Positions 16,116 to 53,170 of a DNA stretch of 64,000 nucleotides are shown here, piece after piece. Numbering within the stretch: the first letter of the stretch is position 1; the number at the start of each line of letters is the position of its first letter. Source of the DNA: Desulfurobacterium atlanticum (GTDB lineage Bacteria > Aquificota > Aquificia > Desulfurobacteriales > Desulfurobacteriaceae). Location of the stretch: the NCBI RefSeq assembly GCF_900188395.1, contig NZ_FZOB01000005.1, forward strand, positions 1-64,000, read 5' to 3'. The notes beneath the pieces are model-generated. The model made no database searches and was not told the origin of the DNA. It saw only the letters and a program-made list of their open reading frames with translations. Both the position numbers and the translations under genes were made by a program.

Positions 16116-17039
16116 TTAGCCCAACATTTTGACAGCAAGATCAACAGCTGAAATGAAACTTTTTACACTGGCTATCCCCTTTCCAGCAATATCATAAGCA
16201 GTGCCATGACCTACAGAGGTCCTAACAAAAGGCAGTCCAAGAGTAACATTAACAGTTTCTTCAAAGCCTGTTAATTTCACGGGGATCAATCCCTGATCAT
16301 GATACATGCAAAGAACAGTACCAAATTCACCAGAAACTGCCCTGTTAAAAACAGTATCCGAAGGGAAAGGACCGTAAACTTTCAGCCCTAAATCTCTGGC
16401 TTTCTTTATGGCAGGTTTAATCACTCTTTCCTCTTCATCACCGAATAAACCACTCTCCCCAGCATGAGGATTTAAACCCGCAACAGCAATCTTCTCTCCA
16501 GGAAAATATCTATCTATAAGAAGAAGCTTTTTAAAAATAGAGTCAGACGAAATCCTGTTTGCAACTTTATTCAGAGGGATATGAGTTGTTTCAAGAACAA
16601 CTTTCAACTTACTATTTGCAAGCATCATGGCAAAATCTTTAATCTTAAACTCAGATGCGAAGTATTCTGTATGTCCAGGAAAGTTGAAACCAGCAGACTT
16701 TATAGACTCTTTATTTATAGGAAGAGTAACAATAGCATCTATACCGCCGCTTTTAACTGCAGATACCGCAGATTTAAGATACTCAAACTGAGCTTTTCCA
16801 GCTTCTACTGAAACTTTCCCGGGTATAAAATCAGAAACGGAACAAACATCTTCAAAAAAAACATTTCCCGGGAAACTTTCCAGCGATATCCCCAGCAGTC
16901 TTGAGTAAAAGTCTAAGACCGCTTTTGAACCATAAACTTTAAAAGAAACATCATATTCTTCTAAATAGGTAAGACTTTTTATAAAAATCTCTGGCCCAAC
17001 TCCGGCCGGATCTCCAAGAGTTATCCCAACTTTTTTTAT
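16116..17039 (-). CDS. pdxA: 4-hydroxythreonine-4-phosphate dehydrogenase PdxA, with ATA start
   Basis: Pyridoxal-phosphate biosynthesis enzyme of 307 aa. The reading frame gives KKVGITLGDPAGVGPE at the N-terminus, then PINKESIKSAGF, PGHTEYFA, AVAGLNPHAGESGLFG, GPFPSDTVF, MYHDQGLIPVK and TSVGHGTAYDIAGKG, all classic PdxA. No ATG, GTG or TTG exists between the upstream in-frame TAA and this conserved N-terminus. The best start is ATA at 17039, 6 nt after GGAGG and overlapping the upstream stop as ATAA. A G-to-A change from an ancestral ATGA would explain both. The first in-frame ATG is about 137 codons in and cannot be the start. Confidence 0.9.
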   Translation of the reverse strand: MKKVGITLGDPAGVGPEIFIKSLTYLEEYDVSFKVYGSKAVLDFYSRLLGISLESFPGNVFFEDVCSVSDFIPGKVSVEAGKAQFEYLKSAVSAVKSGGIDAIVTLPINKESIKSAGFNFPGHTEYFASEFKIKDFAMMLANSKLKVVLETTHIPLNKVANRISSDSIFKKLLLIDRYFPGEKIAVAGLNPHAGESGLFGDEEERVIKPAIKKARDLGLKVYGPFPSDTVFNRAVSGEFGTVLCMYHDQGLIPVKLTGFEETVNVTLGLPFVRTSVGHGTAYDIAGKGIASVKSFISAVDLAVKMLG

Positions 17040-17362
17040 AGAACTCCTCCATTGTTATTTTCGTCATCACCAAAATCTGAGTCAGGAATTGACGTCCTTC
17101 TTATAACCTCCGAAACTATCCTTTCACCTAATGTTTTAAGCTCCTCAGAAAGCTGTTTCAGTTTATACTTAAGTTCAACATTTTCCTGCTCAAGAGCCTC
17201 ACATTTTTCCGTTAATTCCTGAATTTTCTCCTCATAATCTGTTTCCATCTTTTCAAAAAGTTTGAAAAGTGAAACTGAAATGTTCTCAAGCTCAGCTTTA
17301 TAGCTATTTTCATTTACGCTTTCACTGTTATTTAAATTTTCTTTATTTTCCATATATTCCAT
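17036..17362 (-). CDS. Coiled-coil protein of unknown function
   Basis: 108-aa acidic protein, not recognised. Residues about 20-90 form a continuous heptad-rich coiled coil (EKMETDYEEKIQELTEKC... to LSEELKTLGERIV), resembling small division or scaffolding proteins only in style. The C-terminus is acidic and Asn-rich. Start ATG after TAGGAGG. Its stop codon overlaps the ATA start of pdxA, so the two are probably translationally coupled. Confidence 0.7.
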   Translation of the reverse strand: MEYMENKENLNNSESVNENSYKAELENISVSLFKLFEKMETDYEEKIQELTEKCEALEQENVELKYKLKQLSEELKTLGERIVSEVIRRTSIPDSDFGDDENNNGGVL

Positions 17363-17444
17363 GATTTTCCTCCTAAAAGTAACTTATGATTTTAAATTAA
17401 TCTATTCCTGCAAAGTATATTCTACCATCAAAAACACCATTTAT

Positions 17445-50754: not shown

Positions 50755-51390
50755 TTAAAAAAGGTTTACTCCGACAACTTTTGCCATGAGAAAGCTTATA
50801 CTGTTTATTGTGTTCATTAGTATGGAGGTAAACGGCGGAAGCATTATTATTGCTATGAGAATAAACATTCCATAAGGCTCATACTTTCTGATTTTTAAAA
50901 GTGTTTCAGCCGGTAAGAAATATTCAAGAATTCTGTATCCATCAAGAGGTGGTATGGGAAGAAGGTTAAATACTCCAAATGCGATGTTTATAAATGCACC
51001 CCATGTAAAGAATATTGTTAAGGGCAGACCTATAGATGCAGGGATGTATACTGTAGATAATACTTTAAGGAATATAAGGAACAGAAAGGCACTTATAAAG
51101 TTTGATGCCGGGCCTGCAAGAGCTACAAGTAACATTCCAAGCCTTTTATTTTTTATTTTTCTAAATAGAAGTGGATTGACAGGGACCGGTTTTGCCCAGC
51201 CAAAATGAACAAGCAAAAGAGCTATAAATCCAACAATATCTATATGGGCTATTGGATTTAGAGTCAATCTTCCGTAAAGTTTGGGAGTTGGGTCTCCCAA
51301 TCTGTAAGCTACATATCCGTGGGCAAACTCGTGGATTGTTAATGCCCATAGTATTGCAGGGATGCCTATTATCCATTCTGTTGCGTTTAT
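50755..51390 (-). CDS. Site-2 protease family (M50) membrane metalloprotease, with ATA start
   Basis: 211-aa intramembrane zinc protease. From the ATA start: an opening helix, HEFAHG (His20, Glu21, His24), GDPTPKLYGRLTLNP, AHIDIVGF, FGWAKPVPVNP, ALAGPASNF and PIPPLDG (third zinc ligand Asp). This is the complete typical SREBP-like short M50 protein. Upstream in frame there is TGA, then only AAG GAG GAT ATC ATA; no ATG/GTG/TTG occurs before HEFAHG. GGAGG lies exactly 5 nt before ATA. The first in-frame ATG (51300) would delete the active site. Confidence 0.88.
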   Translation of the reverse strand: MNATEWIIGIPAILWALTIHEFAHGYVAYRLGDPTPKLYGRLTLNPIAHIDIVGFIALLLVHFGWAKPVPVNPLLFRKIKNKRLGMLLVALAGPASNFISAFLFLIFLKVLSTVYIPASIGLPLTIFFTWGAFINIAFGVFNLLPIPPLDGYRILEYFLPAETLLKIRKYEPYGMFILIAIIMLPPFTSILMNTINSISFLMAKVVGVNLF

Positions 51391-51414
51391 GATATCCTCC
51401 TTTCATATTTGGTT

Positions 51415-52020
51415 TTAAATTTTTTCTTCAACAATATCTCCGTAAGGTTCCACCTCTTTGAAAATCTGTCCCTGAAAGCGGTAAACCTGACAGTATGGAG
51501 ATTTCCAGCAGTCCGGCGGTAGCCCGGCTTTTAGACAGGTTTGGGATAAAAACTCTTCTTCATTCCATCCCCACTCTACAGGAACCTGAGGAAGGAGGAG
51601 GCCACTTGCAAAACCGCACCGAACTATCAATCCATCTCTTCCGACTTTTATTTCTTCAGGTAGTTTTTCAGGTGGAACATCTAAAAGTTCAGGTGGTGTT
51701 AAAACGGTAACTTCAAATGTTACATTTTCAAGTTCTGATGGGTCCATCGGAGGAAATCTCGGGTCTTTTGTTGCTGCAGAAATTGCAGCGTCTATTGTTG
51801 CTTCTATAAGTGGCATTACAGGTTCTGGAAATCCTATACATCCTCTGAGCTGGTCTGCCGGGAAAGTTTTTATGGTTACAAAAACACCCCTTTTCTCAAA
51901 TAGCTCTGGTGGTGTATCTGGCGGTATAGGAAATTTTCTTCCGTTTATTAGAAGCTCTTCCACTGTTGTCCTTGCAACTTTTACAAGGAATTTTCCGTAT
52001 TCTAAGGGAAGCAGTTCCAT
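51415..52020 (-). CDS. AMMECR1 domain protein (AmmeMemoRadiSam A-like)
   Basis: 201-aa protein of the AMMECR1 family, with the signature LRGCIGF and RFPPMDPSEL, LTPPELLDVPP, VRCGFASGLLLPQVPVEWGW and QTCLKAG. Partner genes (Memo, radical SAM) of the AmmeMemoRadiSam system are not adjacent. Pro-rich and closer in style to archaeal members, so acquisition is possible. 1 nt after the serpin stop region; function unknown. Confidence 0.85.
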   Translation of the reverse strand: MELLPLEYGKFLVKVARTTVEELLINGRKFPIPPDTPPELFEKRGVFVTIKTFPADQLRGCIGFPEPVMPLIEATIDAAISAATKDPRFPPMDPSELENVTFEVTVLTPPELLDVPPEKLPEEIKVGRDGLIVRCGFASGLLLPQVPVEWGWNEEEFLSQTCLKAGLPPDCWKSPYCQVYRFQGQIFKEVEPYGDIVEEKI

Positions 52021-52021
52021 T

Positions 52022-53170
52022 TTACTCCTCCAGAGGATTAGCTATATATCCTGTAAATAAAATAGTTCCTTTTTTATCTGTTATGGTGAAAAAGAATGGT
52101 CTGTCTATTTTAAACAGTTTTTTAGGTCTTGGAAGGATAGATTTTAAACCTATTACAACGGCTGTTGCAGCGGCAGCTTCTGTTCCGTTTTCATCCACAT
52201 TAATAAATGTCTGATGAATCGCTTTCTGAACGTAAAGATTTTTCTTTCCGGTCATTTCAGAAAGGTCTGCTTCCATGTTGAAAACATCTTTTATTCCGAT
52301 TTTTGAAAGTGGTTTTTTAAGATATGTTCTGTTTTTAAGTTTAAATTTTGGCATTTCAAGGTCAACATTTTTAAAATTTAGTTTGTTTAAAACATTGTTG
52401 TAGTTTTCATATGTGAGTTTAAAGTTTTCCGTTTTTGGAACAAATATGTTCATTCTGTAACAATTTTTATAGAAAAGGGAAATCGCTTTCACCGTTTCAT
52501 TTTCAAAAGTTTTAAACCTTCCTGATGTTTTCATCATCGGTACTTTTACAGTTTTACCTAATGTGTAAAAAGGTTTGTTTTCTGTTAGTTCTTTTTTAAA
52601 AGGTATCAGCCAGTTATCTTTAAAATGGATAGCGTTAACTATTATTAAACGGGAAAGGGAGTTTACGTCGGATGGTTTTAAAAGGTTTTTTATTTTACCT
52701 TTAGTTGTTTTTTCCACATCCCTGTTGATAAGGTTAACGGTTTTTATCCTTTCTGTTTTGTTTTTAAAATCAACCTGTTTTATCTCAGGTTGATAAAAAT
52801 TTGTTACAGTTTTTAAAAAATTTCCTTTTAGTTTAAATCCTTTCTGGATATAGATTCCGTTAAAGAGTTTTAAATTTTCATCCGATTTTTTCTCTTCTAT
52901 TTCCTCTTTTATAAGTTTTCTGAGAACAGATTTTTCTGGATATAGAAAGCCTCTTTTAAGCTCTTTTTCTGTATTGTTCTCTGCTCCTTCATACACTGGT
53001 GAAAATGCTATGTAGATACTGTAGGGTGAAATAAGGATATTTTTCTTCTTTTTGTAAGAAGCGTTTAAAAATTTTAAACTGAAGTTGTTTACACTTTCTT
53101 CAAAAGTTCCTGCAACAGCACTTCCTGTTAGAAGAAGTGCTGCTAACAGGCTTAAAAATATTTTCCTCAT
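52022..53170 (-). CDS. Secreted serpin with inhibitory-type hinge
   Basis: 382 aa: signal peptide (about 1-20), then a full serpin fold. NILISPYSIYIAFSPVYEGA, LINRDVEKTTKGKIKNLL, LSRLIIVNAIHFKDNW, breach-region HQTFINVDENGTEAAAAT, and FKIDRPFFFTITD. The reactive-loop hinge GTEAAAAT (residues 329-336) matches inhibitory serpins. Counting P15 as Gly329 places P1-P1' at about Lys343-Ser344, suggesting a trypsin-like target. A periplasmic or extracellular protease inhibitor is inferred. Confidence 0.92.
   Translation of the reverse strand: MRKIFLSLLAALLLTGSAVAGTFEESVNNFSLKFLNASYKKKKNILISPYSIYIAFSPVYEGAENNTEKELKRGFLYPEKSVLRKLIKEEIEEKKSDENLKLFNGIYIQKGFKLKGNFLKTVTNFYQPEIKQVDFKNKTERIKTVNLINRDVEKTTKGKIKNLLKPSDVNSLSRLIIVNAIHFKDNWLIPFKKELTENKPFYTLGKTVKVPMMKTSGRFKTFENETVKAISLFYKNCYRMNIFVPKTENFKLTYENYNNVLNKLNFKNVDLEMPKFKLKNRTYLKKPLSKIGIKDVFNMEADLSEMTGKKNLYVQKAIHQTFINVDENGTEAAAATAVVIGLKSILPRPKKLFKIDRPFFFTITDKKGTILFTGYIANPLEE

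Follow-up and report, generated by a model that had tools for sequence, protein, structure and literature searches.

The M50 protease gene of Desulfurobacterium atlanticum raises the question of where, and at which codon, its translation begins. Within the window (the whole stretch of 64,000 nucleotides that was analysed), the gene lies on the minus strand and has no canonical start codon ahead of its active site. The initial annotation had proposed initiation at an ATA, here and at a second conserved gene of the window, and had taken the two cases to suggest that the lineage tolerates AUA starts, perhaps through a modified initiation set-up. The start of the M50 gene and the wider claim are considered in turn below.

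The M50 protease gene and its start codon

The M50 open frame runs from 51402 to 50755 on the minus strand, with its stop codon at 50757-50755. The minus strand at the start reads TGA AAG GAG GAT ATC ATA AAC GCA ACA GAA TGG ATA ATA GGC. An in-frame TGA stop (51403..51405) directly precedes the Shine–Dalgarno (SD) sequence AAGGAGG (51396..51402), which is separated by five bases from the ATA start codon (51388..51390). The coding sequence from this ATA (50755..51390) specifies 211 amino acids plus a stop. The protein scores 61.8 bits against Pfam PF02163 (cut-off 27.2), contains HExxH and a distal DG motif, and is predicted to be a site-2 protease. The HEFAHG zinc-binding motif occupies residues 20-25 (51316..51333, minus), of which H20, E21 and H24 are invariant in 22 orthologs. 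A model built from 22 orthologs was all-helical (pLDDT 86.8), with HEFAHG held in the first helix (residues 3-30).

ATG, GTG and TTG are absent from the frame ahead of codon 31, a TTG (51298..51300, minus) that represents a false start. Because this first canonical codon lies past HEFAHG, a gene call limited to ATG, GTG and TTG yields a 181-aa protein lacking the active site, and dropping the AUA start would, according to the structure model and the sequence, mean the loss of the HEFAHG helix. The initial annotation was thus correct in its reading of the upstream sequence, of the five-base spacing and of the missing canonical start, and in its expectation that automated annotation would truncate such genes. 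On its 5′ side, the M50 gene adjoins an AMMECR1-family gene (51415..52020, minus; PF01871, 193 bits). Between the AMMECR1 gene and a gene for an RseP-type protease lies one for a serpin (52022-53170, minus; PF00079, 316 bits), a kind of protein uncommon among bacteria.

M50 orthologs were present in 40 of the 41 genomes searched, and they fix the start column. Within the genus, this column contains ATA in three of four genomes and ATC in the fourth. The sister genomes read GGAGG-AAGCT-ATA, GGAGG-AAGTC-ATA and GGAGG-AAGCC-ATC, all with the five-base spacing, and AGGAGG is invariant in the genus (n = 4 genomes). In a four-way DNA alignment, the AGGAGG block was kept, the remaining upstream DNA was poorly conserved, and conservation returned at the start codon. 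The in-frame stop 5′ of the gene lies at varying distances from the start among several orthologs.

In the other family genomes, the M50 start is TTG, or CTG in one, with an SD spacing of 5-6. The family genomes read therefore have UUG, CUG, AUA or AUC, and never AUG or GUG; AUN is conserved within the genus only, and the non-AUG state family-wide. A single genome of the order's next family was read, and its start is ATG (L016); the Aquificaceae orthologs have ATG in the same alignment column as the genus AUA. In the protein alignment, Ile1 of the genus stands over the Aquificaceae Met (INLNEWIIGIPAV versus MNLQEMIIAIPAI), as in the aligned N-termini INLNEWIIGIP (AUA) and MNLQEMIIAIP (Aquificaceae ATG). 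This comparison indicates that the M50 protease gene almost certainly starts at AUA. It is the ortholog evidence that raises the case above chance, since the SD-ATA motif alone does not.

pdxA and a putative low setting of expression

The other ATA start claimed for the window, that of pdxA (16116..17039, minus; TIGR00557, 352.6 bits), also held, and infC provides a third case, with ATA throughout the genus (4/4) and ATT or ATC elsewhere in the family. The pdxA start codon (17037..17039, minus) follows a GGAGG (17046..17050, minus) at a spacing of 6, and overlaps the upstream TAA as ATAA (offset +1) in 4/4 genus genomes. All four genus genomes start pdxA with ATA, and AUA, AUU or AUC is found in 14/14 readable family genomes (outside the genus, ATA in G015, G005 and G007; ATT in G014, G006, G009, G011 and G010; ATC in G004 and G008), versus ATG in the Aquificaceae genomes read. 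This non-AUG start across the whole family is the most striking part of our results.

The pdxA start is overlapped by an upstream ORF in 14/14 family genomes; outside the genus, the upstream stop begins 13-25 bases past the first base of the pdxA start codon. At the genus junction, one A-to-G change from ATAA to ATGA would produce an AUG start and convert the upstream TAA to TGA. Because 4/4 genus genomes keep ATA though this single change suffices, AUG appears to be selected against, and the retained ATAA is the strongest sign of such selection. In the window, the overlapping ORF (17036-17365, minus) is a small coiled-coil ORF with only weak Pfam matches; most of the family has ORFs of similar length ahead of pdxA.

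We consider it likely that the M50 gene uses standard fMet initiation at an AUA that is discriminated against by IF3 and supported by a strong SD, with low output kept by selection. Translation would begin at 51390-51388, a position that rests on comparison, where the strong SD would place the ordinary initiator fMet-tRNA (CAU) on the AUA. As CAU mispairs with the third base of AUA, we infer that the protein still begins with fMet and, as IF3 destabilises mispaired complexes, that it is translated at only part of the rate that an AUG would allow, which would keep the protease level low. This setting would be held by selection, as would those of infC, pdxA, comF and a geranylgeranyl-reductase-like gene, whose non-AUG starts are likewise conserved in the genus, here sampled as four genomes that share ancestry.

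Regulation of the M50 start by IF3 is possible by analogy, the IF3 dependence being carried over from E. coli and S. aureus. Since UUG, a codon spared by IF3, predominates in the rest of the family, weak initiation may be what is conserved at M50, not IF3 sensitivity. A further proposal, that infC, pdxA, M50, comF and the reductase make up an IF3-sensitive gene set in Desulfurobacteriaceae that is tuned by the IF3:ribosome balance, is unlikely, and we put it forward tentatively; if true, this balance would jointly set IF3, membrane proteolysis and vitamin B6 synthesis.

The weak start could instead work mainly by coupling, with ribosomes that finish translating AMMECR1, or the ORF ahead of pdxA, reinitiating at the nearby AUN codon and codon strength playing a minor part. 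The overlap at pdxA in 14/14 genomes is consistent with this, as is the position of the AMMECR1 stop 12-16 nt ahead of the M50 start in most family members. However, in the genus the upstream stop lies 27-46 nt from the M50 start, a greater distance than most relatives with UUG show; AUG is the start of many coupled genes, and coupling leaves both infC and the avoidance of AUG unexplained. Coupling as the main cause is therefore somewhat doubtful, and it may add to the effect of a selected weak start, especially at pdxA.

Frequency of AUA starts and the initiation apparatus

The survey of start codons covered a sample of 863 kb (49.6% of the genome, 727 genes), read in stretches. Across the whole genome, every GGAGG-N5-6-ATA and AGGAGG-N5-6-ATH match was inspected in its neighbourhood. 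Credible non-canonical starts among the 727 sampled genes were those of pdxA, M50, the geranylgeranyl-reductase-family gene and comF and, less surely, hflX and dusB. The reductase gene starts with ATA in D. atlanticum (G000:C1:185854, minus; stretch L184 of the joined sample L180-L184), and with ATT in G001 and G002, the latter copy being broken. The comF gene has ATT eight bases past GGAG in 4/4 genus genomes (L313-L316). Both dusB and hflX appear to be CUG-started here, and are weaker cases because their relatives use TTG, GTG, ATA or ATG. In one relative, hflX (G010:C11:35553-36595) appears to be split into two overlapping frames by a frameshift or an assembly error.

A prepilin-like gene (L402:404) has an SD-spaced ATC two codons ahead of an ATG, leaving its start ambiguous. 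A Sir2 gene flagged as non-canonical was dropped because of an ATG eleven codons upstream. Inspection also removed the automatic flags on LpxK, on a protein of outer-membrane type and on sites internal to long frames. When ortholog pairs with aligned N-termini were compared for two relatives (162 pairs and 160 pairs), no further non-canonical starts emerged, and among the GGAGG-N5-6-ATA and AGGAGG-N5-6-ATH matches genome-wide, no clear gene start was found beyond infC, pdxA and M50.

The genome-wide scan for GGAGG-spaced ATA, which the initial annotation had proposed as the test of its own claim, gave values at or below background. GGAGG-N5-6-ATA occurred 88 times, versus 149 for the reversed pattern, a rough control that differs in composition. 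As a better control, ATA made up 1.8% of the triplets at GGAGG+5/6 versus a background of 2.5%, and ATG 5.0% versus 1.4%. AUA starts in this genome are rare and gene-specific, and there is no general tolerance of them. That two of them fall within a window of 64 kb reflects chance clustering.

A whole-genome pattern search revealed only one GGGCTCATAACCC initiator tRNA, the two other matches not being tRNAs. Its anticodon is CAU, and it carries the three G-C pairs along with the C1xA72 mismatch; its counterpart in another genus matches it except at a single D-loop base. The genus encodes a full-length IF3 in which some substitutions are private. A selenocysteine tRNA gene was also present (L192:4048-4142, minus).

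A relaxed apparatus (altered IF3, tRNA or ribosome), under which AUA would be tolerated and drift in anywhere, might account for the AUA starts of several unrelated genus genes, for the AUA of infC in the genus as against AUU or AUC in the rest of the family, and for the private IF3 substitutions. It is nonetheless improbable: AUA-type starts occur in a handful of the 727 sampled genes, GGAGG-spaced ATA is not enriched, the initiator tRNA is normal, and the non-AUG state is conserved gene by gene, for pdxA across genera. Nothing need be special to the lineage, because other genera of the family use AUU, AUC or AUA at infC and pdxA. Thus nothing in the initiator tRNA sequence or in genome-wide AUA use shows the modified set-up that the initial annotation had suggested, nor did its idea of general AUA tolerance hold; changes in rRNA or IF3 activity are possible in the genus.

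Initiation of M50 away from the AUA is very improbable. An ATC stands directly before the ATA in the window, and an out-of-frame ATG (51406-51404, minus) overlaps the SD region and could serve with a frameshift. However, the ATC is not the start, since the sister genomes have GCT, GTC or GCC in its place; the out-of-frame ATG is missing from them, and use of the downstream TTG would cut off HEFAHG. A sequencing error for ATG, favoured only by the rarity of AUA starts, can be practically dismissed, as independent genomes with 79-83% protein identity carry ATA or ATC in the same column.

Comparison with known systems

AUA is among the rarest bacterial starts, and several genes whose AUN starts have long been conserved are now found in a thermophilic phylum. 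AUN starts held by selection are already known (infC, pcnB, ccpN). Within the literature searched, where no paper on Desulfurobacteriaceae start codons was found, M50, pdxA, comF and the reductase are new members of this group, and an AUN pdxA throughout a family is unusual. Deinococcus deserti reportedly also makes unusual use of non-canonical initiation codons, a likeness drawn from the title alone of a 2010 report by Baudet. The conserved AUN starts, among them that of pdxA, which lacks AUG in all family genomes read, support the view of weak starts as a selected expression setting, and M50 shows where start callers limited to ATG, GTG and TTG remove an active site.

IF3 counters initiation at codons outside the set AUG, GUG and UUG and selects against those that lack a final G (PMC4611024), and weaker starts tend to come with stronger SD sequences (PMC5622118). 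For 61,358 reconstructed AUG starts, switches to GUG, UUG, CUG and AUU are listed, and none to AUA (PMC5622118). The infC gene (AUU or AUA, under IF3 autocontrol) resembles M50 in its AUN codon, good SD spacing and conserved non-AUG state, and the infC of this genome itself has AUA. M50 is not a translation factor, and its product is not expected to feed back on its own start.

E. coli pcnB has an AUU start (Binns and Masters 2002, as relayed in PMC4227106 and PMC13009471). It is, like M50, a chromosomal gene, and is reported in those accounts to be limited by its inefficient AUN start; it differs in using AUU where M50 has AUA with UUG in family relatives, and the effect at M50 is putative. 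In S. aureus, infC, ccpN and citZ have AUA starts with an extended SD (PMC13009471). At the latter two sites, output reached ~10-30% of that from AUG, an attenuation that the authors propose to be modulated by IF3 (PMC13009471). As at M50, AUN follows a strong SD in ccpN and citZ (AUA) and in cvfC1 (AUU), and the non-AUG state of ccpN and cvfC1 is conserved among relatives (PMC13009471). The S. aureus starts, in other genes and another phylum, are backed by Ribo-Ret and luciferase assays, and the M50 start by comparison alone.

At the protein level, the M50 product shares the HExxH and PPLDG motifs with the M. jannaschii S2P (3b4r), to which it gave a profile match (E 1.3e-8). The same structure was the top fold match of the M50 model, a weak one (E 0.012, TM 0.45). 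In contrast to M. jannaschii S2P, the M50 protein is a short form that has no PDZ domain and carries its HEFAHG helix at the very N-terminus.
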